From: Acidobacteriota bacterium
GTDB lineage: Bacteria > Acidobacteriota > Thermoanaerobaculia > Gp7-AA8
Direction of reading: 5' to 3'
Assembly: GCA_003223645.1 (NCBI GenBank)
Contig: QHVT01000031.1
Location: forward strand, 1-50,230
DNA: 50,230 nucleotides
Part shown: piece by piece, positions 24,528 to 42,500 of the stretch
Layout of the letters: each line of letters opens with the position of its first letter
Numbering within the stretch: the stretch's first letter is position 1
Program-made: the position numbers and the translations under genes
The notes under the pieces: generated by a model
The model's input: the letters and a program-made list of their open reading frames with translations, nothing else
Database searches by the model: none
What the model was told of the DNA's origin: nothing

Positions 24528-26210
24528 TCACCGAATCAAGCCCCGCTCCCGCAGCACCTCAATAATCCGCGCCGCGTTCTCCTCCGCCGAATTCTTCGTC
24601 GTTTCCAACGTAACCTCCGCCGCGAGCGGCGCTTCGTACGCGTCGTCGACGCCCGTGAACTGCGCGATCGCGCCTTTGCGCGCCTGCGCGTACATCCCCT
24701 TCACGTCGCGCGACTCGCAAACGTCGAGCGGCGTGTCGACGAACACCTCGATGAAGCGGTCGCTGCCCGCCATCGCGCGCGCGTTTTCACGCGCGGCGCG
24801 GTAGGGGCTCACGGCCGCGCAAATCGCGATGCCGCCATGGCGCGTGATCTCGGAGGCGACGAAGGCGATGCGGGCGATGTTGGTGTCGCGGTCTTCTTTC
24901 GAGAAGCCGAGTCCTTTGGAGAGGTGTGTGCGGACGACATCGCCATCGAGGAGCGTGGACTGGCGACCGTGTTCGAGGAGGCGCGCGACAAGGATCTCGG
25001 CGGTCGTGGATTTGCCGGAGGACGGAAGGCCGGTGAACCAGATGCAGACGCCCTGCTGATGCCGCGGCGGGTAGCTCTCCGCGAGAATCGCCGCGGTCTC
25101 GGGCCGCGTGAACCACGACGGCAGCGCGACGCCGGCGGCGAGATAGTGGTCGCGGAGCTGCGTACCGGAGATGGAGCGCGTCTCCGCGCCGGCGGGGACG
25201 CGCGACGCTTCTTCGTAGCGGTCCTCATTCACGACGTAGACGAGGTCGTGGAACGGCACCATCTTCATCCCGATCTCGTCGGAGTGTTGCGCGACGAGCT
25301 CCTGCGCGTCGTACGGGCCGTAAAACTGCGGACCGGGGCTGGCGTGATCGCGGCCGACGATGAAGTGGCTCGCACCGAAGTTGCGGCGGATGAGCGCGTG
25401 CCAGAGCGCTTCGCGCGGACCGGCCATGCGCATCGCCAGCGGCAGGAGCGAGAGCAGCACGCGGTCCTTCGGGAAGTAACGCTCGACGAGCGCCTTGTAG
25501 ATGCGGACGCGCGTGAAGTGATCGACATCGCCCGGTTTCGTCAGACCAACTGCAGGATGCAGCAGCAGCGTTCCGTCGACGGCTTCGATCGCGCGGCGCG
25601 TCAGCTCTTCGTGCGCGCGATGCATCGGATTGCGCGTTTGGAACGCGACGACCTGATCGCGTCCGAGCTCCGCGAGCTTCGCGCGCACCTCGGCCGGCGT
25701 GCGTCGCAATTCGCGAAAGTCGAACGGCGACGGGAGATTGAGCACGCGCAATCGTCCCGAAATGTTCCGCGGTCCCCACCGCTCCATCTCCGACACGAGC
25801 GGATGCTTCGGATCGCGCGTGCCGGCGATGCCCTGCGCGGCTTCGCCTCGATCCCACTCGTAAATCTCCTCGACCGTCATCACCGCGAGGATCTCGTTCG
25901 TCGAGCTGCGCAGCACGACGTCGCGACCTTCCGCGACCGGCGCATCCGCGGCGACCGGCAGCGTGATCGGCATCGGCCAGAGCGTTCCGTTTGCGAGTCG
26001 CATTTCCGCGAGGACGCCCGCGTAATCGGACGAGCCGAGGAAACGATCGAGCGGAGAGAAGGCGCCGGTGGCGAGCAGCTCGAGATCGTGCTGCGCGCGC
26101 GGCGAGATTTGAATCGAAGGCAGCGCGGCCGCTTCGCGCAACAGCGAGTCGCGCTCTTCGCCGCGCACGAGAAGATCGATGAGGGTACCGCCGTAGGGAG
26201 GGGTCAGCAT
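24528..26210 (-). CDS. sat: Bifunctional ATP sulfurylase / APS kinase
   Basis: The N-terminal part is ATP sulfurylase: the MLTPPYGGTLIDLLV start, QTRNPMHRAHEELTRRAIEA with the nucleotide-binding HxxH at residue about 190, and GRDHASPG further on. The C-terminal part is APS kinase: P-loop GLPSSGKST at about 391, then LLDGDVVRTHLSKGLGFSKE and the FVDTPLDVCESRD lid segment. Together they convert sulfate and two ATP to PAPS, the donor for sulfotransferases or for reductive assimilation. The order sulfurylase-kinase matches heterotroph bifunctional enzymes. I chose ATG 26210; a GTG at 26234 gives eight extra residues. No cysD/cysN or PAPS reductase is nearby, so a role in supplying sulfate for glycans made by the neighbouring cluster is possible but unproven. 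Confidence 0.93.
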   Translation of the reverse strand: MLTPPYGGTLIDLLVRGEERDSLLREAAALPSIQISPRAQHDLELLATGAFSPLDRFLGSSDYAGVLAEMRLANGTLWPMPITLPVAADAPVAEGRDVVLRSSTNEILAVMTVEEIYEWDRGEAAQGIAGTRDPKHPLVSEMERWGPRNISGRLRVLNLPSPFDFRELRRTPAEVRAKLAELGRDQVVAFQTRNPMHRAHEELTRRAIEAVDGTLLLHPAVGLTKPGDVDHFTRVRIYKALVERYFPKDRVLLSLLPLAMRMAGPREALWHALIRRNFGASHFIVGRDHASPGPQFYGPYDAQELVAQHSDEIGMKMVPFHDLVYVVNEDRYEEASRVPAGAETRSISGTQLRDHYLAAGVALPSWFTRPETAAILAESYPPRHQQGVCIWFTGLPSSGKSTTAEILVARLLEHGRQSTLLDGDVVRTHLSKGLGFSKEDRDTNIARIAFVASEITRHGGIAICAAVSPYRAARENARAMAGSDRFIEVFVDTPLDVCESRDVKGMYAQARKGAIAQFTGVDDAYEAPLAAEVTLETTKNSAEENAARIIEVLRERGLIR

Positions 26211-26290
26211 GTCGTAGTCAGACTTGAAACACACGAAGTCGTGCCGCCCGGCCGTTCCCGCTCGAAGGTGGATTTGCGAGCACGGGTCGG

Positions 26291-26394
26291 GAATGCAGAA
26301 CGCAGAATTCAGAATGCAGAAGTGAGAAGCCCGCCCGCCGGACGATCCGGGTGGGCTTCTGACTTCTGCATTCTGAATTCTGCGTTCTGCATTC
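26291..26394. repeat. Long hairpin with 42-bp arms made of GAATGCAGAA-type words
   Basis: Arms 26291-26332 and 26353-26394 are complementary at 41 of 42 positions around a 20-nt GC-rich loop. Each arm is built from 10-bp words (GAATGCAGAA, GAATTCAGAA). It lies in the 299-bp spacer between the start of the ATP sulfurylase gene and the S26-like gene, so it is upstream of both divergent genes. Confidence 0.92.
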
Positions 26395-26457
26395 CTGTGC
26401 CGTGCGCGAAAAGGTTCACCACAGCGCGCGCACGCCGCACCAGAGTATCCGCACCTG

Positions 26458-26509: not shown

Positions 26510-26878
26510 GTGGACCTTCGCGTGTTTTCGGCGCTGCGCGATCTCGCGCGCGAAGAGGATTCGCCGGTGGTGATCAGCGGCGACTGCATGGAGCCGCTGC
26601 TGCGCCGCGGCGAGACGGTGCGCGTGCGCGCGCGGCGCGTTTACTTGCCGGGCGACGTGGTGGTCTTTCGCACGCGCGCCGGCGATCTCGCCGCGCATCG
26701 CGTCCTCGGCTGGCACCCGCGCGGTCTCGTCACGAAAGGCGACGACTGCGTCGAGCGCGACGCGCCGGTGTCGCGCGACGACATCGTCGGCGCGGCGCGC
26801 CTGCATATCGCATTCGCCGATCGACTGCGCGCGTTCGCGGCGTGGACGCGCATCGCCGCGCGAAGGATCGCGCGGTGA
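26510..26878 (+). CDS. S26/S24-like peptidase with Cys at the nucleophile position
   Basis: This 122-residue protein resembles SipW/ER-type signal peptidases: VVISGDCMEPLLRRGETVRV aligns with the SGSMEP box, VYLPGDVVVF follows, and AAHRVLGW with LVTKGDDC matches the His-containing HR and TKGD motifs. The usual Ser nucleophile is replaced by Cys in DCMEP. There is no N-terminal membrane anchor, only a weakly hydrophobic C-terminus, so the enzyme may be cytosolic. The start is GTG 26510; an AGGA lies 12 nt upstream. Its stop overlaps the ATG of the HprK-like gene (TGATG). In this operon a leader-peptide protease is the most natural role, but that is inference. Confidence 0.7.
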   Translation: MDLRVFSALRDLAREEDSPVVISGDCMEPLLRRGETVRVRARRVYLPGDVVVFRTRAGDLAAHRVLGWHPRGLVTKGDDCVERDAPVSRDDIVGAARLHIAFADRLRAFAAWTRIAARRIAR

Positions 26879-27825
26879 TGGAGCGCTTCCTCGTCGAGCC
26901 CGCGCTTTTTCCGCGCCGCATCTCCGGCGAGACGTGGGGCACGGAGAGCGTGACGATCGATCTCGCCGGCGATCGCTATCGCATCGACGGTCTCGCTTCG
27001 TGGCAGGTCGCGAGTCTCGCGTCGCGCTACGGACCGCGCATGAACTTTGTGGGTGCCGCTGCCCTCAGCGGCACCGCGACCGCTGGGGGCAGCGGTCGCC
27101 ACATCACGAGCGGCGATGCGGTCGCGACGCTGCAAGTGTTTCGCGCGCCGCGCTCGGACTTTCGTGAGATCGACACGCGCGGATGGGAGTACTGGCTCGA
27201 TCTGCAGTGGGACGACAACGCGCTCGCGATCGCCGGCATGCGTCTGATGGCGCGCGTCGATCTCGCGTCGATGCGCGGCGGCATCTGGACCTGCGTCGAC
27301 GATCCGGACGAGTTCTGGGGACTTGTCGAAAACGTGCTGCGCCCGATTCTCGCCGCGCAGCTTCTCGATCGCGGCAACGGTTTGCTCGTGCACAGCGCCG
27401 CGGCGGACGGATTTCTGTTCCCGAGCACGTCCGGCGGCGGCAAGTCGACGATCGCGCGGATGGCACTTGACGCTGGACTGCCGGTGTTGAGCGACGACTT
27501 GAACGCAATCGTCCGTCGCGAGGATCAATGGATGATTCTTCCGCTGCCCTTCACGGGCGACTTGCTCGAGCGCGAGCTGAGCGCAACGCCGCAACGTCTC
27601 CGCGCGATCGTCGCGATCGAGAAAAGCACGGACAACGCGCTGCGGAACATGCCGGCCGCTGCCGCCGTTTCACTCCTCACACGATGCTCGCCTTACGTGA
27701 ACCAAGATCCGCAGCGGACGGACGCGCTCGTCTCGCGCGCGGCGGAGATCGCCGCGGCAGTGCCCCGCGCGATGCTCGCGTTCACGATGGGCGGGAACGT
27801 GTGGCCTATACTGAATCGGGCCTGA
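26878..27825 (+). CDS. HprK-like serine kinase
   Basis: This 315-residue protein has the HPr kinase C-terminal fold signature: GLLVHSAAADGF, P-loop STSGGGKSTIARMALDAG (near residue 185), then LPVLSDDLNAIVRRE with the conserved acidic pair. The N-terminal half is not the HprK N-domain but a region seen in HprK-related proteins of peptide gene clusters. A CAGCGG palindrome (27049-27102) is embedded in frame near residues 58-75. In some lasso clusters such kinases phosphorylate the precursor C-terminus; here the substrate is unknown. It is translationally coupled to the S26-like gene by the TGATG overlap, and a hairpin (27823-27911) separates it from the next gene. Confidence 0.8.
   Translation: MERFLVEPALFPRRISGETWGTESVTIDLAGDRYRIDGLASWQVASLASRYGPRMNFVGAAALSGTATAGGSGRHITSGDAVATLQVFRAPRSDFREIDTRGWEYWLDLQWDDNALAIAGMRLMARVDLASMRGGIWTCVDDPDEFWGLVENVLRPILAAQLLDRGNGLLVHSAAADGFLFPSTSGGGKSTIARMALDAGLPVLSDDLNAIVRREDQWMILPLPFTGDLLERELSATPQRLRAIVAIEKSTDNALRNMPAAAAVSLLTRCSPYVNQDPQRTDALVSRAAEIAAAVPRAMLAFTMGGNVWPILNRA
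27049..27102. repeat. CAGCGG palindromic element (short form) inside a coding region
   Basis: A 54-bp element, two self-complementary units (GGTGCCGCTGCCCTCAGCGG and GACCGCTGGGGGCAGCGGTC). In reverse complement it corresponds to the ends of the longer copy at 18004-18092. It encodes a Gly/Ala/Ser-rich insert (FVGAAALSGTATAGGSG) in the HprK-like protein. Confidence 0.88.
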
Positions 27826-27911
27826 TAGGACTTATAGGACCAATAGGACTGATAGGACTCATAGGACGTTATAGGACGTCCTATGAGTCCTATTCGTCCT
27901 ATTCGTCCTAA
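27823..27911. repeat. ATAGGAC tandem-word hairpin inside the operon
   Basis: The arms are built from the word ATAGGACTN; the core 17-bp arms (27852-27868 and 27877-27893) are perfectly complementary around an 8-nt loop, and outer words pair partly. The element starts on the HprK-like stop codon and ends 11 bp before the AGGAG of the PqqD-like gene, so a strong hairpin forms in the operon mRNA between two genes. Confidence 0.9.
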
Positions 27912-27934
27912 GGGCCGGGCCAGGAGACCACGAG

Positions 27935-28210
27935 TTGCTCGATCCCAACACAACGCTCACACTCGACCGGCAAGTCCGCTTTCGCCGGTTCGAGGATGAA
28001 GGCATCGTCATCAATCAGAAGGCGGCCGAGGCGGTCGTCATCAGCGAAGTCGGCACGCGGCTCATCGAGCTGGCGGACGGCACGCGCACGCTGCGCGAAT
28101 GCGCGGCGCTGCTCAGCGAAGAATTCGACGCGGCGCCGGACGTCATCGAACAGGACGTGATCCGCTTCGCCGAGCAGCTCGTCGAAGCGGGAATCGCGGC
28201 GCCATCATGA
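27935..28210 (+). CDS. PqqD-like peptide-binding protein (RRE type)
   Basis: The start is TTG 27935, supported by AGGAG 8 nt upstream; no ATG is available in frame. The 91-residue protein matches the PqqD fold: beta strands VRFRRFEDEGIVINQK and AVVISEVGTRLIELADG, then helices TLRECAALLSEEFD and VIEQDVIRFAEQLVEAGI. PqqD-like domains (RiPP recognition elements) bind the leader of a precursor peptide and present it to the modifying enzyme. The stop overlaps the ATG of the radical SAM gene (ATGA), so the two proteins are made together. It is not accompanied by the genes of pyrroloquinoline quinone synthesis. Confidence 0.88.
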   Translation: MLDPNTTLTLDRQVRFRRFEDEGIVINQKAAEAVVISEVGTRLIELADGTRTLRECAALLSEEFDAAPDVIEQDVIRFAEQLVEAGIAAPS

Positions 28211-29358
28211 CGGCCTTCGATCAGATGAACGCGCGCAGCTGGGAAGAGAACCATCTCTTCGGCGTGCTGATCGAGCTCACCTACCGCTGCAATCTCGACT
28301 GCTTCTTCTGCTACAACGATCTCAATCTGCGCGGCACGCCGCTCACCTTCGACGAGTACGCGACGTTCCTCCGCGATCTCGCGGACATGAACGTGCTCAA
28401 CGTGATTCTGAGCGGCGGTGAGCCGCTCGCGCATCCCGATTTTTTCCGCATCGGCTCTCTCGCCCGCGGCCTCGGCTTCGTCGTGCGCGTGAAGTCGAAC
28501 GGCCATGCGCTCCGCGGCGAGCTCGCGCGGCGGCTGCGCGATGAAGTCGATCCGTACGTCGTCGAAGTCTCGCTGCACGGCGCGCGCGCGGACACGCACG
28601 ACCGCCAGACGCGCGTGCCCGGCAGCTTCGCGCGCCTCATCCAGAACCTGTCGGTGATGAAAGAGCTCGGGCTGCGCGTGAAGGTGAACAGCACGCTCAC
28701 CGCGTGGAACGAGCACGAGACCGCGGAGATGTACGCGATCTGCGACGCGCTCGAGCTCCCGCTGCGCTTCGATCTGCAGGTCTCGCCGCGCGACGATGGC
28801 GATCGCACGCCGCTCGAGGTCGCGCCGACACGCGAAGGGATCGGAAAGTTGATCGCGGTGCAGGACGCGCGCTTCGCTGCGCTGAACCCCTCACCCGTCG
28901 CGGAGCCAGTCCTGAGCGAAGTCGAAGGGCGACACCCTCTCCCCGCAAGCGGGGCGAGGGGCAACGAGAGCGGGAACGCGGAAAGCGCGGCAGGTAGCCC
29001 TTCTCCCCGCGTGCGGGGAGAAGGTGGCCAACGGCCGGATGAGGGGCCGTCCTCCACCAAGCATTGCGGCGCGGGCTCCGCCGGCATCGCCATCGATCCC
29101 TACGGCAACGTCTATCCGTGCGTGCAGTGGCGGCGCGCGGTGGCGAATCTGCACGACGTCCGCATCGCGGAGATCTGGCAGACGGGATTCGACGGGATTC
29201 GCGCGGAGACGGAAGAGGCGGCGCGCGTGGTGCGCGCGCATCCGCGCGGGAAGCTGCTGAATTTCTGTCCGGGATTGGCCGAGGTGCTGACTGGTTCGGC
29301 CACGCGCGTCCCCGAGGAGCTGGAGCGCATGGCCGAAATCGTCGCGTCTACGAGTTGA
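28207..29358 (+). CDS. Radical SAM/SPASM-like peptide-modifying enzyme
   Basis: This 383-residue protein has the radical SAM cluster motif CNLDCFFC (Cys 28, 32, 35), the SAM-binding ILSGGEPLAHPDFF and VEVSLHGA. After the TIM barrel, a C-terminal Cys-containing region (HCGAGSAGIAIDPYGNVYPC and NFCPG) resembles a SPASM or twitch domain with auxiliary iron-sulfur ligands. A roughly 55-residue repeat-derived insert (28887-29050) lies between core and SPASM. Partnered with the PqqD-like protein, it should install a C-C, C-S or C-O link, epimerise or otherwise modify a peptide. The ATG overlaps the PqqD-like stop. The target peptide is not certain; a small ORF overlaps its 3' end. Confidence 0.9.
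   Translation: MTAFDQMNARSWEENHLFGVLIELTYRCNLDCFFCYNDLNLRGTPLTFDEYATFLRDLADMNVLNVILSGGEPLAHPDFFRIGSLARGLGFVVRVKSNGHALRGELARRLRDEVDPYVVEVSLHGARADTHDRQTRVPGSFARLIQNLSVMKELGLRVKVNSTLTAWNEHETAEMYAICDALELPLRFDLQVSPRDDGDRTPLEVAPTREGIGKLIAVQDARFAALNPSPVAEPVLSEVEGRHPLPASGARGNESGNAESAAGSPSPRVRGEGGQRPDEGPSSTKHCGAGSAGIAIDPYGNVYPCVQWRRAVANLHDVRIAEIWQTGFDGIRAETEEAARVVRAHPRGKLLNFCPGLAEVLTGSATRVPEELERMAEIVASTS
28887..29050. repeat. RIME-like composite element inside the radical SAM gene
   Basis: It begins with CCCCTCACCCG and ends with CGGATGAGGGG, like the composite at 14621-14822. Inside are CTCCCCGCAAGCGGGGCGAGG and TTCTCCCCGCGTGCGGGGAG hairpins and a nested TCCTGAGCGAAGTCGAAGGG (28910-28929), a repeat word common in many bacterial genomes. 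It is translated in frame. Confidence 0.9.
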
Positions 29359-29468
29359 TCGGGCCGCTGGGGCAGCTGGCCGCGTTGCCCTTCGCCGGCG
29401 GCCGCGGGGAGCAGAGCGCCGCCATCGCCTCGAGCGGTTCGCGCGAGACGATCGACGGCGGCGAATAA
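29355..29468 (+). CDS. Tiny overlapping ORF; candidate precursor peptide
   Basis: A 37-residue ORF starts at TTG 29355, overlapping the radical SAM stop (TTGA). It ends at TAA 29466-29468. Codon third positions are almost all G or C, as in real genes here. The sequence runs from IGPLGQLAALPFAGG, a hydrophobic leader-like part, to a Gly/Ser/Ala-rich tail (AAIASSGSRETIDGGE). Immediately upstream, in the same frame, the codons read RRVYEL, which resembles the Y-containing part of RRE-recognised leaders, but no normal start codon covers it. No clear ribosome binding site is seen. It could be a substrate of the operon or a chance ORF. Confidence 0.35.
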   Translation: MIGPLGQLAALPFAGGRGEQSAAIASSGSRETIDGGE

Positions 29469-29489
29469 GGCCTCCGCTTTTTCTCTTCG

Positions 29490-32400
29490 TTATTCGTTTC
29501 CGGTGCCTGGGCCACCGACATTCTTAACCTCCGTGGGAAGGTCGACCCGCAGTGCGGGATCGCCGAGAAGCAGATAGACGCTGGCGGTGTCGTTGCGATG
29601 CTCGGCCAGCGACTTCACGATGAGATCGCCGATGCGCGACGACGGAGTCAGCGATGCAAGCCGCATGAACGACCGCTGGATCTCGCTGGCCTCGGCGTGC
29701 TCCGAGAGGCCGGACGCGGACCAGACCGCAAGCGCGCCCGCGTTGTCCGCGCGCGTCAGCGAGACGCCGAGCGGATCGACGAAGCCGTTCTCGAAGCGGT
29801 TGATCGTGCAGGTCATCGCGACCATCAGCGGCAGCCTACCGGATGACGTGAGCGACGGCGCGTCGTACGAACTGAGCACGCCGTAATTGGAAATGCGATC
29901 GAGTCCGCCGTGGCCGACCCAGCTCACCAGCGGCGTGCCGCTGTGCCACGAGTCGATCAGCGTGTTGCGCGCCTGATCGAATCCGACTTGATCGAGGTAC
30001 GCATGCGTGATCTGCAGCGCGGAGAGCGACGTTTCGGCGCGCTTGCTCGCGTTGGTGAAGATCGTGGTCCCGTCGGCCGCGTCCGCGCTGAACACCATCG
30101 GCGAGTTCGCGACGTTGATGAAGCGGTTCGCGTTGACCTTGGCGGTGTACGACGACAGCTCCGAGGCTGACGATACCGGAATGCGTCCGATGCTGACGTC
30201 CGGGAGATGGTCGTTGTCGAAGTCGACGTAGAGCGTGTCCGACGCGTAGATGCCGTTGAGCGTCGAGAGCATGATCGGCGGCATTGCGCCGGGCGAGCCG
30301 TTGATGCCGCGATAGTCGACCGTGCCGTTGCCGGCGAGGACGACGTACGCCGGCGACGCGCTCCAGTTCGAGCGCGCGTATTTCAAAAAGTCCTGGATCG
30401 CGTGCGGGCTCTTGTTGCCGCCGTTGAACTCGTCGTAGATCTGCTCGAGGTCGGCGACGAACGTCGTGAGCCCTTCGCTCTGACGCAGACTCGCGAGCTG
30501 ATCGGCCGCCGCATGCCATGACGACGGCGCGATGATCAGCCACTGCGCGCGCTGCCGCGTCTTCAGCGTCGCCGCGTACGCGGGACGCACCGAGCTCGGC
30601 GCCACAAAGCTCTCTGCGAGATAAAAGTCTTTTTGCGACGGAGAGACGAAGCTCGCCGTGCCGGCGATGAACGCCGCGCCCTGCACGACCTGCGGATGCA
30701 GCGGGTTGGTCACGTCGAGCACCATCGGAGCCGCGGTGAACGGACCGGCGCCGACTGCGCCGTTGCCCTTCATCGCCAGCTGACCGCTATCGGGCTTCGC
30801 GAACTTCTGATAGCCGACCGCGAATCCGTCGACGTAGAAGATGTCGAACACGCCCGGCTGATACACGCCTTCGACGACGACTTCATTCGCGCCGTCGCGC
30901 AAGAGCGCGGCCGGCAGCGCGAATGACGCGTTCTGCGCGTTGAACGATGTGAACGTCGTTTCGCCGAGGGGGACGCCGTTGAACGTGATCTTCGCGCGAT
31001 GCGTCGCGTCCTTCGACGCGCCCTGCAGCCGCACGTTGAGCGTCGCGCCGCTCGCCGACGCGACCGACGGAACGTTCAGGTTGAACGTCTGCCGCCCGAT
31101 GTCGGGATCGCCGCTGAGCAGCGCGGCCCAGAACCAGTAGTCGCTCTCCGCATCGAGCGGGAGCACCGTCGCGTGGAACGCATCGGTCTCGAAGTCCTGG
31201 GTCGCCGTGAACGAAGAGACCGCGGCGCTCGAAGATGCAACCGCGAGGTTGCTCATCGCCGCGCCGTCCTGATCGAGCTCGATGCGATACACGCGCTCAC
31301 TCGAGTAAATCGAATTCGGCTTCTGCGCGAAGAAGTACAGCGACGCGCCGTCGCTCGTGTACGAAACGAGCGAGCCGTTGTCGGTGATGAGCAGGCGTCC
31401 CTTGTCGAGCGCCTTCGTGACGTCCTTCACGTCGACGCCGAGGGACGACGCGAGATCGGTGGCGGACATGCGCACGATGCCGGTCGACTTCACGCCGACC
31501 ATCGCCGCGGCCACCGGCAACTTCGCATTCGACTGGAACCCCGCGTCGGCAAATGCATTCGTCGCGAACGAGCGCGGACGGCGCTGTTCCTCGGCCTTCG
31601 CCTTCTCGCGATCGAATCCCTCGAAGCGATGGAACGGACCGTACGATTTCCTGCGCCCGGACGACGTCACTTCTTCGACGACGTACATTGCGCCCGGATC
31701 GGCGTTGTTGCGATCGAAGAGCGAGTACTTGCCGCCGCTGGCCTTGAGGCTCGCCGGGATCAGCGTCTCGTTCACTCTCGTGCCGTCGAGGCGATAGATG
31801 TTGAAGCCGAGGGTTCCGGCTTCGGACGCGGTGGTGAACTCGATGTTGGTGCCGCCGCCGCGCACGTCCATGTCGAACTTCGACAGGACCGCCTCGGTCG
31901 CCAAGCCGCCGACCGTGACCGCCAGCTCGCACAAACCGCCGAGCGTGTACGTCGCGCGCGTCTGCGTCGCATTGCCGGTCTCGTCGACGAACGTCGCGCG
32001 CGTTCCGTTGCCGGAAGCGGGAGTGTTCGTGATGATCTTGCGTCCGTTCGTCGGCGACGTGATGCGCACGTCGTAAAAGAGAATCGCGGTCGCACCGGCG
32101 GCGAGACTAGTGCCGCTGTTCGGATTCCACGTGATCGCGCCGGTGCTTCCGACCGCCGGCTGCGCCGTGATCGTTCCCTGCGAGACGCCGGCGTTGCCGC
32201 CGTACACGAGGCCATACGCGTTCGCCGGTACTTCCGTGCGCACGAGGTTGGCGGCGCTGAACGTGATCGCATACGGCGTCGGGTTCACGACGCGAACCGT
32301 GACCGTGAAACGGCTCTGCGTGCCGATGACGGGCGGGTTCGGCCCGGGCGAGATTGACGCCTTCGTGAGGAACTGCTCCATGTACGGCTTCACCGGCACG

Positions 32401-33410
32401 CCGCCGCCGTCGGTCGGCAGATAGAGGCGGAACGCGGCCGGAGCTGCGCCGTTGACGATCGGGTTCGACGTCGGATTGCCGGTCGTCAGATAGCTGCCGA
32501 CGTAGTACGTTTCGTAGTTTCCGCTCGGACCGCCGCCGTACGTAGTGATGGTCGGCTGGACGCGCCAGATGCCGTAGTCGTCGACTTCATCGTCGTCGAC
32601 CCACGACGTCAGGTCATCGTGATTCCAAGCGTTGTTGATCGACAACGTTGTGGACGGGAAGGTCTGGGTCGTTCCGGTCAATGCGCTGACGAGGTTCAGC
32701 CGGCTGCGATACGTGACCGAGCCGGTGTCGCCGGAGTCGGTGTCGCGGTCGAAGTCGTTCTGCGAGCAGGTACAACCGGAGGTGACGTAAGGAAAGAGCG
32801 TGTACGTTCGCGTGGCGGCACCGGGATCGGGATTGATACCCAGCGACACCATCGAGTCGGCGTAGACATTCATCTCCGTGCCGGTGCCGTCGACGTTGCC
32901 TTCGTTGGCGCGGATACCGATCGCGTTGATGTCGTTGTTGCCCGCGGGACCATTCATGTCCACCCGCAGTTCCCAATGGCCGACCGCATTCCGGTCCGCC
33001 ACCGCGGTGCTGTTGAACAGGATCGTCCACGCGTTGTCGGTGCAGGTCGTGCTGCTGCAGCCGGCCAGCGTCGCTGCGGTCGTACCATCCGGCCTGAAAA
33101 GCGTGTAATCGACGGTGGTGCTGAACCCGCCGCCGCGATCGCGGTCGCGTCCCGCATCCGCCTCGGCGGCGCCGCCACGGCCGATGTCGGCGTCGAAGAT
33201 CTCCACGCGGATTCGCGGGAGACCGGCCGGCACCTCGACCCAGTAGCGATAAACGGTGTTCAGACCGGCGGCGTCGGACACGTAGTCGCCGTTCGCCGTA
33301 CCAGCCTGCGTGCCCTGAGGCATGTGCAGTGCGATCTGTCCGGTCGACCCCGCGTACGCAGACACCGCGACGCACGCAATGATGAGACAAAGCGCAACTC
33401 TGGTTTTCAT
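29490..33410 (-). CDS. Exported C25 (gingipain-type) cysteine peptidase
   Basis: The start is ATG 33410, with GGGAA upstream; a TTG at 33437 is less likely. The signal peptide is TRVALCLIIACVAVSAYA. The 1,306-residue protein has several beta-sandwich regions, one starting RIRVEIFDADIGRGGAAEAD, a beta-repeat segment with NPTPYAITFSAANLV, and a von Willebrand-like or Ig part. From about residue 930 comes the C25 peptidase: QWLIIAPSSWHAAADQLASL, YVVLAGNGTVDYRGI, catalytic His in SWVGHGG (about 1165) and catalytic Cys in MVAMTC (about 1200). Gingipain relatives are secreted and often process other surface proteins. It converges with the radical SAM operon with little spacer. Confidence 0.88.
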   Translation of the reverse strand: MKTRVALCLIIACVAVSAYAGSTGQIALHMPQGTQAGTANGDYVSDAAGLNTVYRYWVEVPAGLPRIRVEIFDADIGRGGAAEADAGRDRDRGGGFSTTVDYTLFRPDGTTAATLAGCSSTTCTDNAWTILFNSTAVADRNAVGHWELRVDMNGPAGNNDINAIGIRANEGNVDGTGTEMNVYADSMVSLGINPDPGAATRTYTLFPYVTSGCTCSQNDFDRDTDSGDTGSVTYRSRLNLVSALTGTTQTFPSTTLSINNAWNHDDLTSWVDDDEVDDYGIWRVQPTITTYGGGPSGNYETYYVGSYLTTGNPTSNPIVNGAAPAAFRLYLPTDGGGVPVKPYMEQFLTKASISPGPNPPVIGTQSRFTVTVRVVNPTPYAITFSAANLVRTEVPANAYGLVYGGNAGVSQGTITAQPAVGSTGAITWNPNSGTSLAAGATAILFYDVRITSPTNGRKIITNTPASGNGTRATFVDETGNATQTRATYTLGGLCELAVTVGGLATEAVLSKFDMDVRGGGTNIEFTTASEAGTLGFNIYRLDGTRVNETLIPASLKASGGKYSLFDRNNADPGAMYVVEEVTSSGRRKSYGPFHRFEGFDREKAKAEEQRRPRSFATNAFADAGFQSNAKLPVAAAMVGVKSTGIVRMSATDLASSLGVDVKDVTKALDKGRLLITDNGSLVSYTSDGASLYFFAQKPNSIYSSERVYRIELDQDGAAMSNLAVASSSAAVSSFTATQDFETDAFHATVLPLDAESDYWFWAALLSGDPDIGRQTFNLNVPSVASASGATLNVRLQGASKDATHRAKITFNGVPLGETTFTSFNAQNASFALPAALLRDGANEVVVEGVYQPGVFDIFYVDGFAVGYQKFAKPDSGQLAMKGNGAVGAGPFTAAPMVLDVTNPLHPQVVQGAAFIAGTASFVSPSQKDFYLAESFVAPSSVRPAYAATLKTRQRAQWLIIAPSSWHAAADQLASLRQSEGLTTFVADLEQIYDEFNGGNKSPHAIQDFLKYARSNWSASPAYVVLAGNGTVDYRGINGSPGAMPPIMLSTLNGIYASDTLYVDFDNDHLPDVSIGRIPVSSASELSSYTAKVNANRFINVANSPMVFSADAADGTTIFTNASKRAETSLSALQITHAYLDQVGFDQARNTLIDSWHSGTPLVSWVGHGGLDRISNYGVLSSYDAPSLTSSGRLPLMVAMTCTINRFENGFVDPLGVSLTRADNAGALAVWSASGLSEHAEASEIQRSFMRLASLTPSSRIGDLIVKSLAEHRNDTASVYLLLGDPALRVDLPTEVKNVGGPGTGNE

Positions 33411-33553
33411 GATTTTCCCGTTGGGATACTGATTCAAACACAGCAGATCGCCGTCTCTTCCCGCGTCAACAAAACGTGAAGAAGAGACCGCCGGCTGGTT
33501 TCTCTCTTTTAAGGGACCTCATCCAATGTAACACGCCACGGTACGATGCGCGC

Positions 33554-36408: not shown

Positions 36409-36525
36409 TTGAAAACCTGAGAAATTTGGACTATATGGTGTCTTTAATCCATAAGTCCTCTCGGACGGCCGGCATGGGGCCGACCGCCCGCCTGCGGCGC
36501 TTCCTTGTATCCGAAGGAGCTCGAC
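36409..36525 (+). promoter_or_regulatory. Promoter and leader of the 4,125-residue protein gene
   Basis: TTGAAA (36409-36414) and TATATG (36432-36437) are 17 bp apart, the best sigma-70-like pair I saw in the window. It predicts a start near 36444 and a leader of about 80 nt. The leader has a short stem CGGCC/GGCCG (36466-36482), a GC-rich stretch, and GAAGGAG 6 nt before ATG 36526. Confidence 0.65.
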
Positions 36526-39500
36526 ATGGCGTTGCGCGGTTTGGGGTTCGTCTCGGTCCTCATTCTTTCTCTGCTCAAACTGGTTCCGACGGCGGCGGTG
36601 ACGTTCACCGTCAACTCCACCGCCGACACGGGCGACGCCACTCCCGGCGACGGCGTGTGCGATGCCGGCGGCGGGGTCTGCACGCTGCGCGCGGCGATCG
36701 AAGAGGCGAATGCGCTCGCCGGCAGCGACACGATTCAGTTCGCGATCGGCAGCGGGCCGCGGACGATCGCGATCGGTCCCAACCTGCCGGTGATCAGCGA
36801 AGCCGTCACCATCGACGGCACGACGCAGCCGGATTACTCCGGGACGCCGCTGATCACGATCGACGGCCCTCCCACCCTCGGCATCGGCGTGACCGGCGGC
36901 GGAACGACCATTCGCGGCCTCGCGCTCGATCATTTCAACGGCACGGCGATCGGCATCAACAGCGGCAACAACACGATCGAGCTCTGCACGATCCTGCATG
37001 CCGGCAACGGCAACGGCGTGGAAATCGACAACGGATCCGGCAACGTGATCCGCAACAACACGATCGCATTCAGCGGTGCCGATGGCGTGCACGTCAACGA
37101 AAGCTTCAACTTCTCCTTCCCGCTCTTCACCGCGCTCACTCCCGACCAGACCCACGTCACCCAAACCATCGATTACACCGACGACTGCAGCAACTTTCAT
37201 CATGTCAGCGACAACGCCCCGATCCTCGACAACGCGGGGCATGCGTTCAACGAGAACTTCGGCGCGCGCTTCACGGCGACGATGTCGATTCCGATGCCGG
37301 GGTCTTATCACTTCGAGTTCTCGAATCTCGACGACCTCGGACGTCTGGTCATCGACTCCACGGAATACATCAACGGCAACGGCGGCAGCGGACTGTTGAG
37401 CGCCGACGTGCTGCTCGGCAGCGGCGATCACGCGATCGAAATCGATTACTGGGAAGGCGGCGGAGCGGCGCGCATCGTCTTCGCCGCCGGCGGGCCGGGC
37501 ACGCCCACGTTCTCCACCGGCGGCAATCCCGGCTGGCTTGCGGAGCTGTTCCAGGGACGCATTCCCTCAGAAGGCAACAAGATCAGCAGGAACTCGATCT
37601 ATGACAACACGAACCAGGGCATCGCGCTGTCGTGCTGCTGCGTCGACGTCAACGATGCCGGCGACGTCGACGCCGGACCGAACACGTTTCTGAACTATCC
37701 CGTCTTCACGAATCGCATCCTCAATCTCAACGGCAGCATCACGCTCGACGGCACCGCGCCGCCGAACGCGCTGGTGGAAGTCTTCGCCAGCACGAACGAT
37801 GCGAACGGCCACGGCGAAGGGAAAGTGTTCCTGGGCGACGTGACGGCAAACGGCGGCGGGAACTTCAACATCACGGTGACGCTGCCGTCCGGCTACTACA
37901 GCGTCACCGCCACGGCCACCGACGCGGCGAACAACACCTCGGAGCTCTCCCAGAACTTCTTCGTGCTGCCGCATCCGGTCGTGGTCACGAACATGAGCGA
38001 CTCCGGACCGGGCTCGCTGCGCGATGCGATCGACGAGGCGAATTCGGACGGCGTAGAGACGGCGATCACCTTCGATCCGTCGCTGAACGGCTCCGCGATT
38101 CAACTGAGCAGCAGCCTCCCTCCGCTCAGCGAGAACGGCACGACGATCAACGGCGACATCAACGGCGACTGCAAGCCGGACGTCGAAGTGCGCGGCAACG
38201 GCACGTTCAACGGCATCACCATCTTCGGCGCGTTCTGCACGATCCGCGGATTGGTGCTCAATCGCTTCAACGCCGAGGCGGTGACGATTCCGGGGAGCGC
38301 GAACAACGACACGATTGTGTGCAACTACATCGGCACCGATCTCACCGGCACGATCTCGTACGACATCGGCGTGCACGGCGTCGTGGTGCGCGACGGCGCG
38401 AACAACAACCATCTCGACCAAAACGTGATCGCGGCGTTCGGGCAGGACGGCGTACTCATCTCGAACGCGTCGAACAACACTCTGAGCGGCAACACCATCG
38501 GGCTCAATGCGACCGGCACCGCGCCGATGGCGTCGCCGATCGGCCTGCAGATCACGAGCTCGAACAACTCGAACATCGACGGCAATCGTATCCTTGGCAC
38601 CAACGGCGCCGTCGACGTGCAGACCTCGCTGGCGACGTCGATCACGAACAACACCATCGGCTGGCCCGCGGGCGCGAATCCGCTCGGCTACGGCATCCGC
38701 CTGTCGAGCACCAGCGGCTCGGTCATCCTCAATAATCACATCGAGAACAACGGCGGCAGCGGAATCCGCATCGAAGGCGGCAACAGCGACGTCAACACGA
38801 TTCGCAACAACGCGATCTCCAACAACGGCGCGCTCGGCATCGATCTCGATGGCGACGGCGTCACGCCGAACGACGGCACCGCCGACGCCGACTTCGGCGC
38901 GAACGAGGATCTGAACTTTCCCGTCATCACGCACGCGACGACGAACGGCGCGAATACCGCGATCGAAGGTTTTCTCGATGCGCCGCCCGGCTCGTACGAC
39001 ATCGATTTCTACGTCAGCAGCCAGCGCGATCCATCGGGCTACGGCGAAGGCGCGACGTGGCTGCAGTCGGGGACGATCTTCCCCGCGCCCTTCACATTTA
39101 ACCTCCCCGCGGTCCCGATCGGCTCGTACATCACGGCGACTGTCACCGGCGGCGGCAGCACCTCGGAATTCTCGCTCGCGATCGCCGTCACCGGTCCGCC
39201 GATCGGCGCACCGCAGATGGGAGCGACGGAGCTCGTCGCGTATCCGGTGCTGCCGAACGCGATCTCGCTACGCTGGCGCGATCCGCAGGCGAGCGAGACC
39301 GGCTTCCGCATCGAGCGGAATCAGTCCGCGAGCTGGGTCACCGTGACGAACGTCGGCCCCGACACGACCACGTTCACCGATACGAGTGTGCAGCCGGGCG
39401 TAACGCGCATGTATCGCGTCGTCGCCTTCACGCCGTCCGGCGATGCGCCGCCGTCGAACATCGCACAGGCGACCGCGTTCAGCACGAACACGCTGCCGGT

Positions 39501-42500
39501 CTGCCGCGAGCGCGCGAGCGCCGCACACGAGGATGCCCGCTCGCCGAGCGTCGCCTGGAACGGCACGAACTGGGCGATGGCCTACGCCGATCAGACGGCG
39601 GGACGCGAGTCCGACATCTTCTTCCGATTCCTCAACGCTGACGGCACGCCCAACAGTCCGCCGATCCGGATCACGAATGACGACGTGCCGTCGACGAATC
39701 CGACGCTGGTGTGGAACGGCACGAGCTACGGCCTCGTCTGGTTCGATCATCTGCGCGGCGCGAACGGGCAGCCGGTCTCGCAGCTGACGTTCGCGCTCCT
39801 CGGGCCGAGCGGCGCGAAGATGCGCGGCGACATCCGCGTCACCGGCACCAATGCAACAGGTCCGGCAAATCCCGACGGCGACATGCCGCTCGTGTGGGAC
39901 GGAAGCGGGTGGGGGATCTTCGTCACCGAATCGACCAGCTCTCCGTCGTCGATCGTCTTCTATCGGCTCGATGACGACGGCGACGTCGTGGTGAACGACG
40001 TCACGATCGCGCAGACGCCGTCGATCGAGGCGAACGTCTCGGCCACCTGGAACGGCTCGGAGTATGGCGTGGCGTGGATCCAGGAGAACGGGCCGGGCAG
40101 CGCATCGATGCGGTTCACGAAAGTGCAGACCAGCGGCGCCGCGGGGCCGATCCGCAATGCCGGATTCGTCGGCGGCGCGGCCGGCACGTTCAATCAGCCG
40201 GCCGGCGCGCGCGGCACGAGTATCGTCTGGAACGGCAGCGGGTGGGCGGTGGCGGGAGCGGGCGCATTCAACGGCATGAACGCGGTCTGGCTCTCGCTGC
40301 TCGACACGAACGGCGTGCTGATCGGCAGTCCGGTGCGGCTCAACGACATCGACGCAATGCCGAAACTGTTCAACAAGCCGGGCGGCGGCTACATCGTCTT
40401 CACCACCGCGACAATCTTCGGGACGTTCACATACGAAGTCGGCCGCATCGAAGCGGATGGGAACGGCCAACCGGTCGGCTCGCGCGCGCTGGTCACTCCC
40501 GACGACGGCACGAATTCACAAATGCCGCGCGTCGCGTTCGACAGCAATACGTCTTACCTCGCCGCGTGGAACGAGCCGAACGAGATCGACGATGCCGTCG
40601 TCTCTGATAACGGCGTCGTCGGAACGATCAACGGCGTCACCGGCGGCCACGGGACGGACTACGAATCGTCGTTCCCGACGCTCATCGAGCACGCAACCGG
40701 ATTCGTCGCGTTCTGGGACGAGTCGGTCGGCAACGCGAGCCAGTTGCACGCCCGGTTCTATCGCCCGTTCGGCACTCCGCTCGACCGCCATCCGGTCAAC
40801 GGCGCGAATCCGGTGCGCACGCCGTCGGCCGTCAGCATCGGCGGCGAGATCGCGCTTGCATGGGGCGACCGCACCACACAAGGCGTCCACTTCGATCGCA
40901 TCGACTCGAACGTCAACTCCGTCCTCGGCGGCGGCGTGCGGATCGGCGACGCGGATGTCGATCGCGGCGTGGCCATGGCGTTCAACGGCGAGGAGTTCGG
41001 CGTCGTCTACGTCCATCCGACGTCCACGCTCAACTTCCAGCGGATGGGCTACAACACGCCGATCGGCCCTCCGACGATCGTCGGCGATGCGAGCGGCGGC
41101 GACGCGGATGCGGATCCGCAGATTCAATGGATCGGCAGCGGCTGGGCGATCGTTTGGGGACGCGACCGCAACCTCTGGTTCGCGAAAGTCGATCCGGCCG
41201 GCGCGCTCGTCGTACCACCCATGCGGCTCACCGACATGAACGCCGACCCGACCGACTTCCAGCTCCTCTGGAACGGTCAGACCCTCGGCCTGGTGACGTC
41301 GGAGAACGGCAACCTCTATTTCACGACCGTCGACGCGAACGGCTTCAAGAACTTCACGCCGGTGCTCGTGGTCAACACGATGAACGCCGATCGCTTCCCG
41401 GCGCTGTACTTCGACGGGACGAACTTCCGCATCGTCTATCCCGACGTCGCGACCGGCATGCGCGAAGTGCAGGTGACGCCCACCGGCAGCGTGCTGCCGG
41501 GCTCGCGCTTCCTCGGCAATCACGCCGAGGGACGGGTGGCGGCGGCGTTCAATGGGGCGGCGACGGCGATGGCGTGGGAGCATCGCGGCGACATCCTGTT
41601 CCAGACCACCGGATGTCTCGCCGACACCACCGCGCCGCCGTGCGCGACGGTGAACGCGTCATTTGCGAACGGTGGCGTGCAACTCAACTGGTCGCAGCCT
41701 CCCGATCCGCAGTCGTTCATCCTCGGCAACAATCTCTATCGCGACGGACGGCTGCTGACGGAGATCGGTCCGAGCACGTTCTCGTATTTCGACGGCGGCG
41801 TCACGCCGGCAGCGACGTACAACTACCAGCTCCGCGCGCTGAACGCCGCGTACCTCGAGGCCACCGGCTGCGCGACGCAGACCATCACTGCGGGCATCGT
41901 GGTCGGTCCACCCGTGCTGCCGAACGCGAGGGTGAACGAGTACTACGAGCAGCACTTCACCGCATCGCAGGGCACGCCGTCGTATTCGTTCGGACTCACC
42001 AGTGCGGTGCCGAGCGGCCTCACGTTCCAGACGTTCGGCATGTTGAACGGCATCCCGACGACGACGGGCCAGTCGCAGTTCACCGTCACGGCGACCGACG
42101 GCCTCAACGCGACCGGCCAGCGCACCTATTTGCTGCGCGTCTGTCCCGCGACGTACATCGCTCCGGCCGTGCTTCCCGATCCGCTCCTCGGCGCTGCATA
42201 TCAGCAGACGCTCACGGTCCGCGGCAGCGGTGGATCGCAGACGTTTGCGATCACCACGGGTGCGCTGCCGCCGGGACTCGCGCTCGCCACCGGCGGCAAC
42301 CTCACCGGCACGCCGGCCGCCGCCGGCGCATACTCGTTCACGATCACGGCCACCGAGGCAAATAGCTGCGCGACGACGCAGCAGTACGCGATGACCGTGG
42401 TGACCGGCGCCGCGCCGCGCGACGTGCAGGCGCTGCCGCAATCGAATTCGCAGATCCTCGTGCGCTGGACGCGTCCGCAACACGGCGAGACCGGCTTCCG

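Follow-up and report, generated by a model that had tools for sequence, protein, structure and literature searches.

A candidate radical SAM peptide pathway with an HprK-like kinase, encoded next to a C25 peptidase gene in an Acidobacteriota bacterium

The DNA analysed here (the window, a stretch of 50,230 nucleotides from contig QHVT01000031.1 of an Acidobacteriota bacterium) almost certainly encodes, judging from gene content and conservation, a RiPP (modified-peptide) pathway that consists of four genuine genes on the plus strand and a precursor peptide gene on the opposite strand. The best overall explanation, to which a probability of roughly one half is assigned, is that this gene set makes a RiPP, modified by the radical SAM enzyme and phosphorylated by the kinase, whose product acts on the C25 peptidase encoded beside it. 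The gene set, the precursor family, and the pairing with C25 are established at the level of sequence; that the peptide would control its cognate C25 peptidase in the cytoplasm, in a staphostatin-like manner, is the most likely mode of action and is put forward with modest confidence.

A sequence-only reading of this DNA had placed four genes on one strand in the order S26-like, HprK-like, PqqD-like, and radical SAM/SPASM, and this order and the coordinates were verified on the plus strand: the S26-like protein is encoded at 26510-26878 (GTG start), the HprK-like protein at 26878-27825 (ATG start), the PqqD-like protein at 27935-28210 (TTG start), and the radical SAM/SPASM protein at 28207-29358 (ATG start). 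Both overlaps that it named are present (TGATG between the S26-like and HprK-like genes and ATGA between the PqqD-like and radical SAM genes), and a gap of about 110 bp containing TAGGAC repeats separates the HprK-like and PqqD-like genes. The span that it gave, 26510-29468, does contain the four genes, but ends 110 bp beyond the radical SAM stop codon, and the C25 peptidase gene and the larger part of the precursor gene fall outside it. Neither of these two opposite-strand parts had been recognised, and their addition changes the biological meaning of the locus. The precursor peptide gene, MSVAQAPETNNEEKKRRPYSPPSIVSREPLEAMAALCSPRPPAKGNAASCPSGPINS, occupies 29348-29521 on the minus strand (57 codons); it was found by motif, is matched by a leader-only model at E 1.1e-11, and has a Shine-Dalgarno sequence, GGAGG (29528-29532, minus strand), 6 nt upstream of its ATG on direct reading of the sequence.

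Among 52 loci gathered by their radical SAM gene (window included), HprK-like genes recur at 48, PqqD-like genes at 47, and S26-like genes at 31, indicating that the gene set is not a chance assembly. The earlier proposal of a plausible RiPP pathway is supported by the comparison: a small ORF is conserved at 42 of the 52 homologous loci (window included), three genomes that lack one at the locus encode it elsewhere, in trans, these ORFs share a [YW]xxP leader motif, and the radical SAM protein stays below the NCBIfam cut-off for each of the 25 families that were listed out of 72 matching (the best, NirJ, at 108.9 bits versus a cut-off of 515). Homologous loci with the same precursor are found in Acidobacteriota, Gammaproteobacteria, and Myxococcota; given the presence of the system in several phyla, the result would not be local to one genome. 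Carriers of the modification gene set are soil and sediment bacteria.

Precursors at homologous loci have in common the [YW]xxP leader, two Cys residues, a Lys between them, and a C-terminal Ser. The window precursor has the YxxP form, and Trp replaces Tyr in some relatives. The core varies in length and sequence between and after the Cys residues, with the Lys, Cys, and final Ser constant; further, K/R is conserved across the family, and no signal peptide was seen by eye in the precursors. A first precursor model was built from nine seeds, all ending in Ser, and the first screen, which covered only ORFs of <260 aa, missed the precursors of loci L062 and L068 because their reading frames extend upstream; both were added after reading by eye. 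A filter demanding that the match reach the ORF end kept 33 rows and was replaced by the leader-only model, trained on the leaders of 46 rows from the first model plus those of L062 and L068. This model found 48 precursors in near loci, of which 47 end in Ser and 47 have Lys between the Cys residues, the 48 not being an independent sample because the training leaders came by way of the Ser-ending first-model seeds. Its hits are the same precursors as before, and its worth lies in the finding of no further ORF in the near loci with this leader and a different ending, with the one exception of L097, which has neither the Lys nor the terminal Ser. The family of 48 rules out a chance small ORF; one row, L097:12976, was discarded as spurious, lying inside a radical SAM frame.

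The C-terminal Ser is also present in 9 of 9 subfamily B and 4 of 4 subfamily C precursors, which were chosen by eye from a motif list with no terminal-Ser requirement (none was chosen in L162 or L164), and in 3 of 3 in-trans copies, which came from a search with a full alignment (A3) whose last column is Ser. Counted in subfamily C are L052 and L053, which were first-model seeds and are unmatched by the leader-only model at E<0.05. Over all precursor groups, 63 of 64 end in Ser. The background frequency is 10-11%, a terminal Ser being encoded by 59 of the 599 predicted genes and by 1374 of the 12570 small ORFs examined.

By its motifs, the HprK-like protein resembles lasso-peptide kinases. 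The His, Lys, and Asp-Asp motif are kept in most of 54 aligned HprK-like proteins; in the window protein the first Walker-A Gly is a Ser and a short in-frame repeat is present. A Pfam scan of the window protein gave no HprK match, and among 44 family members scanned (window included) ScmC was matched by 34 and PF07475 by 3, while an AlphaFold model (pLDDT 92.9) gave weak fold matches to PEPCK and HprK structures. Passages in the literature state that most characterised HprK-type kinases of lasso peptides phosphorylate a C-terminal Ser (PMC9266682, PMC10368454), that this Ser is extremely conserved where a lasso cluster includes a kinase of this type (PMC9266682), and that one kinase, BsfK, phosphorylates an internal Ser (PMC10368454). 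Since the lasso enzymes act mostly on a C-terminal Ser, the HprK-like enzyme quite probably adds phosphate to the C-terminal Ser of the precursor, here on a radical SAM peptide. The link between terminal Ser and kinase is not clean across a distant group: at kinase-bearing loci, precursor-like ORFs end in Thr (L124), Cys (L127), Gly (L134), or Leu (L138), and those of L120 and L122 end in Ser with no kinase detected at either locus.

The PqqD-like protein (PF05402, 3.3e-12), of the leader-binding (RRE) type, would bind the 57-residue precursor at its [YW]xxP leader. The radical SAM enzyme (PF04055, 7e-19; PF13186, 1.6e-5) carries CxxxCxxC and, in alignment A1, a SPASM/twitch-like region that is shortened and contains three Cys residues (CGAG..C..FCPG). 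It would modify the Lys-containing, two-Cys core, most likely by closing a loop through a thioether or another cross-link between side chains, a chemistry for which we consider the chances to be even. The S26-like protein matches TIGR02228 at 3.3e-12 (46.6 bits, below the cut-off of 51.85), and human SEC11, SpsB, and LexA are structural matches of its AlphaFold model (pLDDT 93.3). Where type I signal peptidases (S26) have a catalytic Ser, the window protein has Cys (SGDCMEP), with a His partner (AHR); across 31 aligned S26-like proteins (window included), the nucleophile position is Cys in 25, Ser in 5, and a gap in 1, and the His is present in 30. This S26/LexA-clan peptidase-like protein is the probable leader peptidase and, usually with a Cys-His pair, would remove the leader, plausibly at a conserved LExxAxxC.

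The C25 (gingipain/PorU-like) peptidase is encoded on the minus strand at 29490-33437 (PF01364, 1.1e-64; 219.5 bits versus a cut-off of 23), and its gene shares 32 bp at the 3' end with the precursor gene. The protein contains the GHG and TC motifs and has its catalytic domain at the C-terminus and an N-terminus that is signal-peptide-like by eye; the family profile matches PorU (6za2, the best solved relative) and gingipains (1cvr and 4rbm). Across the 60 genomes compared, the open frames that contain C25 domains range from 517 to 4099 codons. For 32 of the 48 precursors a C25 domain lies <=500 bp upstream on the same strand and, conversely, 33 of 41 C25 domain matches have a precursor behind them at <=700 bp. 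Loci L073, L076, and L087 each contain two C25-precursor units and a single enzyme set; at L088 one C25 gene is followed by two precursors, so that one-to-one pairing is no strict rule. Of the 60 genomes (own included), the 10 that are rSAM-positive all carry C25, versus 13 of the 50 rSAM-negative genomes, and 6 of those 13 have a subfamily B cluster. The precursor occurs in 9 of the 60 genomes, all among the 10 that are rSAM-positive, and in one (G010) it directly follows the only C25 match of the genome at E <= 1e-10. In a quick tree, the association additionally extends over rSAM branches A and B, which are separate. The usual adjacency of precursor and C25 genes suggests that the two work as a pair, and the C25 peptidase is, on this genomic evidence, very probably the functional partner of the modified peptide.

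The peptide may be a cytoplasmic ligand that restrains its cognate, apparently exported C25 peptidase before export, as staphostatins do with staphopains. A passage of PMC3462683 describes staphopain-staphostatin, SpeB-Spi, and Bacteroides C10 pairs, in which a small gene directly adjoins that of a secreted cysteine protease; those inhibitors are unmodified proteins, whereas here a short modified peptide would meet a C25 protease, and the likeness lies in the gene pairing alone. Action in the cytoplasm is most likely because the pairing is mostly one to one and often translationally close, and because there is no widely recurring exporter gene. An ABC-exporter-like gene (named by eye) occurs at 5 of 54 loci; among the clusters listed, nothing else was noticed that resembled a transporter, although many loci have short flanks and exporter absence is therefore weakly supported. 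The conserved core Lys could sit in the S1 pocket of the protease; a comparison of C25 S1-pocket residues yielded no assignment of Lys or Arg specificity. That the peptide inhibits C25 is suggested tentatively. The fullest reading, a new RiPP class in which radical-SAM-looped, C-terminally phosphorylated peptides present a Lys and, in the cytoplasm, inhibit or lock the gingipain-like (C25) exoproteases encoded next to them, with a maturation enzyme of signal-peptidase fold in which the catalytic Ser has been exchanged for Cys, is somewhat unlikely to hold in every element.

Among the alternatives, the C25 peptidase could be a maturation protease that cuts an exported or periplasmic precursor, for example at the core Lys or behind the KR that precedes YxxP, the product being a secreted signal or antimicrobial. 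RiPP precursors commonly have protease genes beside them and gingipains, to which, as to PorU, these C25 domains are related, cleave after Lys/Arg, residues of the kind conserved in the precursors. Most tandem units have one protease per precursor, however, the precursors have no evident signal peptide, exporter-like genes are rare, and many loci already have an S26-like peptidase, all of which makes maturation by C25 rather unlikely. The C25 protein might instead be a PorU-like transpeptidase that joins the modified peptide to the large C25 protein itself or to the cell surface. The NCBIfam PorU sortase model does match (1.3e-54) and PorU is the best solved relative, but the score of 185 bits is below the cut-off of 420, and such a role seems improbable.

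There is similarly little likelihood that the peptide and C25 genes are mere neighbours with no common function. No C25 was found in the available sequence at 10 of 42 near precursor loci, among them L072, L080, L082, and L106 with >9 kb upstream of the precursor, nor on the four subfamily C stretches read, and some rSAM-negative genomes do carry C25; against this stand the repeated tandem units, the gene overlap in the window, the association in both rSAM branches, and the complete genome co-occurrence. A small peptide-derived cofactor like PQQ or mycofactocin would suit the combination of PqqD, radical SAM/SPASM enzyme, and peptidase and the relationship of the radical SAM protein to PqqE (6c8v, 8.9e-26, its best solved relative), but is very unlikely, as cofactor precursors hold their reacting residues and spacing fixed and here the core varies in length and sequence around a constant Lys, Cys, and final Ser.

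The earlier suggestion of an orphan relative of lasso clusters holds for the parts that resemble phosphorylated lasso peptides of the paeninodin and pseudomycoidin type (A, B1, B2, C, K, N), namely the YxxP leader, the PqqD/B1-like protein, the HprK-type kinase (His, GK, Asp-Asp motif), and the C-terminal Ser; PF14907-type genes at 15 loci resemble PsmN. The radical SAM enzyme, Cys-containing core, S26-like peptidase, and C25 partner differ. As had been claimed, the lasso cyclase is absent: of 7 own-genome matches to Asn_synthase (PF00733) none is on the window contig (C17), and the sole match to the B2 leader peptidase (PF13471) is on another contig (G000:C33), which rules out a lasso peptide cluster. 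Families of the SynChlorMet cassette (NCBIfam ScmA-F) rank first among the NCBIfam matches of the kinase (ScmC, 17.9 bits against a cut-off of 125), second for the PqqD-like protein (ScmD, 25.9 against 100), and occur among those of the radical SAM protein (ScmE, 66.6 against 400), and on these cut-offs membership is ruled out; that cassette has two radical SAM proteins, ScmE and ScmF, versus a single match on the window contig. Like sactipeptides and ranthipeptides, the locus has a SPASM-type radical SAM enzyme adjoining a Cys-bearing precursor, whereas the kinase, terminal Ser, and C25 pairing differ, the cross-link here is predicted, and the enzyme scores below the NCBIfam StsB and AlbA cut-offs. 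Gingipains and PorU share catalytic domain homology; here many C25 proteins are paired with a RiPP precursor.

A search of open-licence papers for the gene set, C25 with RiPPs, SynChlorMet, and phosphorylated radical SAM peptides listed none on this system; two of those listed, PMC12257519 and PMC12026744, contain PqqD and S24 terms. The proposed pathway would place a lasso-type C-terminal Ser kinase in a radical SAM context, giving an exact, testable modification site, and would link the C25 family, whose chief known members are gingipains and PorU, to a RiPP, which suggests a role for modified peptides in regulating proteases of the producer itself. A further oddity that can be tested is the replacement of Ser by Cys in a protein with a signal-peptidase fold.

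The radical SAM gene of the window also contains a dispersed repeat (28934-29056, plus strand), inserted in frame in the linker ahead of the SPASM-like Cys residues. The residues that it encodes are missing from six full-length relatives in A1, 20 of 31 own-genome matches to the radical SAM protein fall in this part, and among the 20 matches listed the repeat shows a 79% match to rhizobial plasmid DNA.

The four plus-strand genes that the sequence-only reading had assembled into one operon were confirmed in place and order: an S26-like peptidase (26510-26878), an HprK-like kinase (26878-27825), a PqqD-like protein (27935-28210), and a radical SAM/SPASM enzyme (rSAM; 28207-29358), with a TGATG overlap joining the first pair and an ATGA overlap the last. 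Family searches upheld its naming of the PqqD-like protein (PF05402, 3.3e-12) and the rSAM enzyme (PF04055, 7e-19; PF13186, 1.6e-5), and that of the S26-like peptidase through a signal-peptidase-like family (TIGR02228, 3.3e-12) at 46.6 bits, below the cut-off of 51.85; the HprK-like call is made from matches of relatives and predicted structure. Two opposite-strand ORFs were absent from that reading. One, of 57 codons (29348-29521), is the putative precursor gene; it has a GGAGG Shine-Dalgarno sequence 6 nt ahead of its ATG, is convergent with the rSAM gene, whose end it overlaps, and also overlaps the 3' end of the other ORF by 32 bp. The latter, of 1315 codons (29490-33437), encodes a C25 peptidase (PF01364, 1.1e-64) in its C-terminal 330 residues and has an N-terminus that by eye resembles a signal peptide.

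Relatives of the rSAM enzyme were found in 10 of 60 genomes, the window's own included (E <= 1e-40), and a scan of genome contigs with it gave the best 79 loci of 178 relatives. A close group of 51 loci (L062-L112; E <= 2e-69) and the window make up 52 near loci, all carrying rSAM by construction; HprK is present at 48, PqqD at 47, S26 at 31, and C25 at 34. The small ORF with a common leader motif that had been anticipated beside the gene set was found by the leader model at 42 of the 52. Several of the ten near loci without a precursor end at or just beyond the rSAM gene, and for three of them (L071, L079, and L096) a precursor lies elsewhere in the genome (taken to be G040, G010, and G045, respectively). 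Among the hosts are Acidobacteriota, Gammaproteobacteria (Competibacter, Thiocapsa marina, Halioglobus), Myxococcota, and one Verrucomicrobiota bin. Subfamily A formed a 50-row set (support 95) when 92 rSAM rows were placed in a quick tree, in which A with subfamily C comprised 54 rows (support 98) and the nine subfamily B rows formed a separate branch (support 93). The window's own genome also carries a further, diverged copy, of subfamily B (L054 8077-11239; G000:C36). The HprK-PqqD-rSAM theme, often with S26, also reaches Chloroflexota, Omnitrophota, Elusimicrobiota, Planctomycetota, and a Slackia bin in a distant group of 28 loci (L113-L140; HprK 21, PqqD 24, S26 14, C25 4).

The earlier reading could match the set to no characterised cluster. 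The window's kinase, PqqD, and rSAM proteins fell below the cut-offs of all NCBIfam families among the matches listed. No NCBIfam model for the precursor was found (35 members scanned, one chance match), and targeted full-text searches of open-licence papers listed none that describes this gene set. The enzyme families are known, and it is their combination and their partner that are rated as new.

Aligned precursors share the pattern [KR]x[YW]xxPxI, LExxAxxC, then Cys, Lys, another Cys, and Ser at the end. When only the leader, as far as the first Cys, was modelled, 48 precursors matched in the 52 near loci and L051; 47 end in Ser and 47 have Lys between the two Cys (L097:15115 being the sole exception to both), and these are no independent sample because the leaders were drawn from rows found by a first model built on nine seeds, each of them with a terminal Ser. 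Besides L097:15115, this search of the near loci found no ORF with the same leader and another ending. Among predicted genes 59 of 599 end in Ser, and among small ORFs 1374 of 12570, a background against which the related precursors are not independent counts. Beyond the second Cys the precursors differ greatly in length and sequence (GPISS, IIQGS, GFS, TLGS, NPNS), and the last residue is constant. Ser also ends three unlinked subfamily A precursors (L150, L151, L152), nine of subfamily B, which have CK after the leader (L054, L153-L160), and four of subfamily C (L052, L053, L161, L163), or 63 of 64 overall, with those of B and C chosen by eye and none chosen in L162 or L164. The distant group counts against this regularity: at kinase-bearing loci, precursor-like ORFs end in Thr (L124), Cys (L127), Gly (L134), or Leu (L138), and at L120 and L122 no kinase was detected yet the precursor-like ORF ends in Ser.

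Among 44 members of the kinase family, the window's included, 34 matched the SynChlorMet cassette family ScmC, 31 HprK-related kinase A, 23 PEPCK_ATP, and 3 the Pfam HPr kinase C-terminal domain; the window kinase itself had no match at the limit used in that scan. Its AlphaFold model (pLDDT 92.9) matches PEPCK and HprK structures, which have a common fold, with low TM scores (best E 2.6e-5). In the excerpted text of PMC9266682, the Ser that ends lasso precursors is phosphorylated by PadeK, ThcoK, SyanK, and PsmK and is "extremely conserved" in kinase-bearing clusters, and PsmN puts a hexose on the phosphorylated Ser; an excerpt of PMC10368454 gives the conserved lasso-kinase motif as H-G-G-G-K-S-D-D and BsfK, which acts on Ser3, as an exception. 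In 54 aligned near-locus kinases, the His is kept in 51, the Lys in 53, the first Asp in 53, and the second in 46 (Glu in 7); the window kinase retains His, Lys, Ser, Asp, and Asp, with Ser replacing the first Walker-A Gly. Nucleotidyltransferase-like genes at 15 loci, with PF14907 in all four representatives scanned, recall PsmN. Structures matched by the S26-like model (pLDDT 93.3) are those of the catalytic subunit of human signal peptidase, SpsB, and LexA. The presumed nucleophile position of this protein holds Cys in 25, Ser in 5, and a gap in 1 of 31 aligned proteins, with the His partner in 30; this Cys/Ser alternation argues for a putative nucleophile rather than decay. The L054 paralog has Ser.

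The C25 domains are related to PorU and gingipains; a profile of 17 matched PorU (6za2, 9.5e-39), gingipain R (1cvr, 1.3e-20), and Lys-gingipain (4rbm, 5.9e-13). GH[GSA] then [TS]C was seen in 38 of 41 matches (a split gene in L104 counted twice) and was not clearly visible in L074, one L104 fragment, and L110. A precursor follows within 700 bp in 33 of the 41, and 32 of 48 precursors lie at most 500 bp downstream of a same-strand C25 domain; the frames overlap in the window and are at most 4 nt apart in L068, L083, and L111. Two C25-precursor units accompany a single rSAM/HprK set in each of L073, L076, and L087 and two enzyme sets in L097, L088 has two precursors and one C25, and in L110 and L094 the precursor lies just upstream of the C25 gene. 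C25 was absent at 10 of 42 precursor-bearing near loci within the DNA stretch examined for each. Across the 60 genomes, C25 occurs in 10 of 10 rSAM-positive genomes and in 13 of the 50 without rSAM (Fisher p 1.5e-5) and precursors in nine, all rSAM-positive (p 6.8e-10), both values being optimistic owing to relatedness. Six of the 13 carry a subfamily B cluster. The single C25 match of G010 at E <= 1e-10 has the precursor immediately after it, with fragments of another C25 frame 3-5 kb upstream. Among subfamily B stretches from other genomes, C25 was found in seven (L153-L159) and not on L160; in the window's own genome, the other strong C25 lies in a 3346-codon frame downstream of the B cluster.

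In the proposed pathway, PqqD would bind the leader, rSAM would alter the core, the kinase would phosphorylate the last Ser, and the S26-like peptidase would cut off the leader of a precursor whose gene adjoins the C25 frame and at a few loci overlaps it. A gene judged by eye to be ABC-exporter-like occurs at only 5 of 54 loci, which makes a cytoplasmic role of the peptide plausible, though many loci have short flanks. A small inhibitor gene adjoining a secreted cysteine protease is a known bacterial theme (staphopains and staphostatins, SpeB and Spi, Bacteroides C10 proteases), to which the precursor-C25 pair is likened; staphostatins and Spi are thought to prevent premature activation in the cytoplasm (PMC3462683, in excerpt). 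Taken together, this adjacency, the plausible cytoplasmic role, and the known pairs tentatively favour a control or inhibitor role for the peptide, with a stand-alone probability of about 0.35. The inter-Cys Lys would sit in a small loop that may resemble those of standard-mechanism inhibitors. Maturation by the C25 peptidase, the main rival, is given a somewhat lower probability.

Further features accompany the operon. A lasso-like set adjoins the rSAM cluster at L065 (11383-13928) and L067 (13413-16345), comprising PqqD, a Transglut_core3 B2-like protein, an HprK-like protein, and a PF14907 protein, with no cyclase noticed among the genes read. A fused sulfate adenylyltransferase/APS kinase gene adjoins the operon in the window (24528-26234); in L047 (11728-13443) the two are separated by about 2.5 kb. 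The plus-strand frame of 4132 codons at 36505-48903 was judged by eye as perhaps a giant exported protein, and spurious long frames also arise in this GC-rich DNA. By eye, GCAGAATTCAGAATGCAG-type repeats form a long hairpin ahead of the S26 gene (26290-26395), and an inverted repeat with TAGGAC microrepeats separates HprK and PqqD (27822-27915). An in-frame palindromic repeat within the HprK gene (27047-27100; GAAALSGTATAGGSGR) falls in the low-confidence stretch of the kinase model (residues 69-75, pLDDT < 50). A second in-frame repeat, dispersed, lies within the rSAM gene (28934-29056) and matches 20 listed plasmid rows, all Sinorhizobium meliloti, at 79%, with no listed gene beneath; some part of a 3051-bp query including it matched at 482 places in 171 records, and the rSAM part holding it was matched by 20 of 31 own-genome rows.
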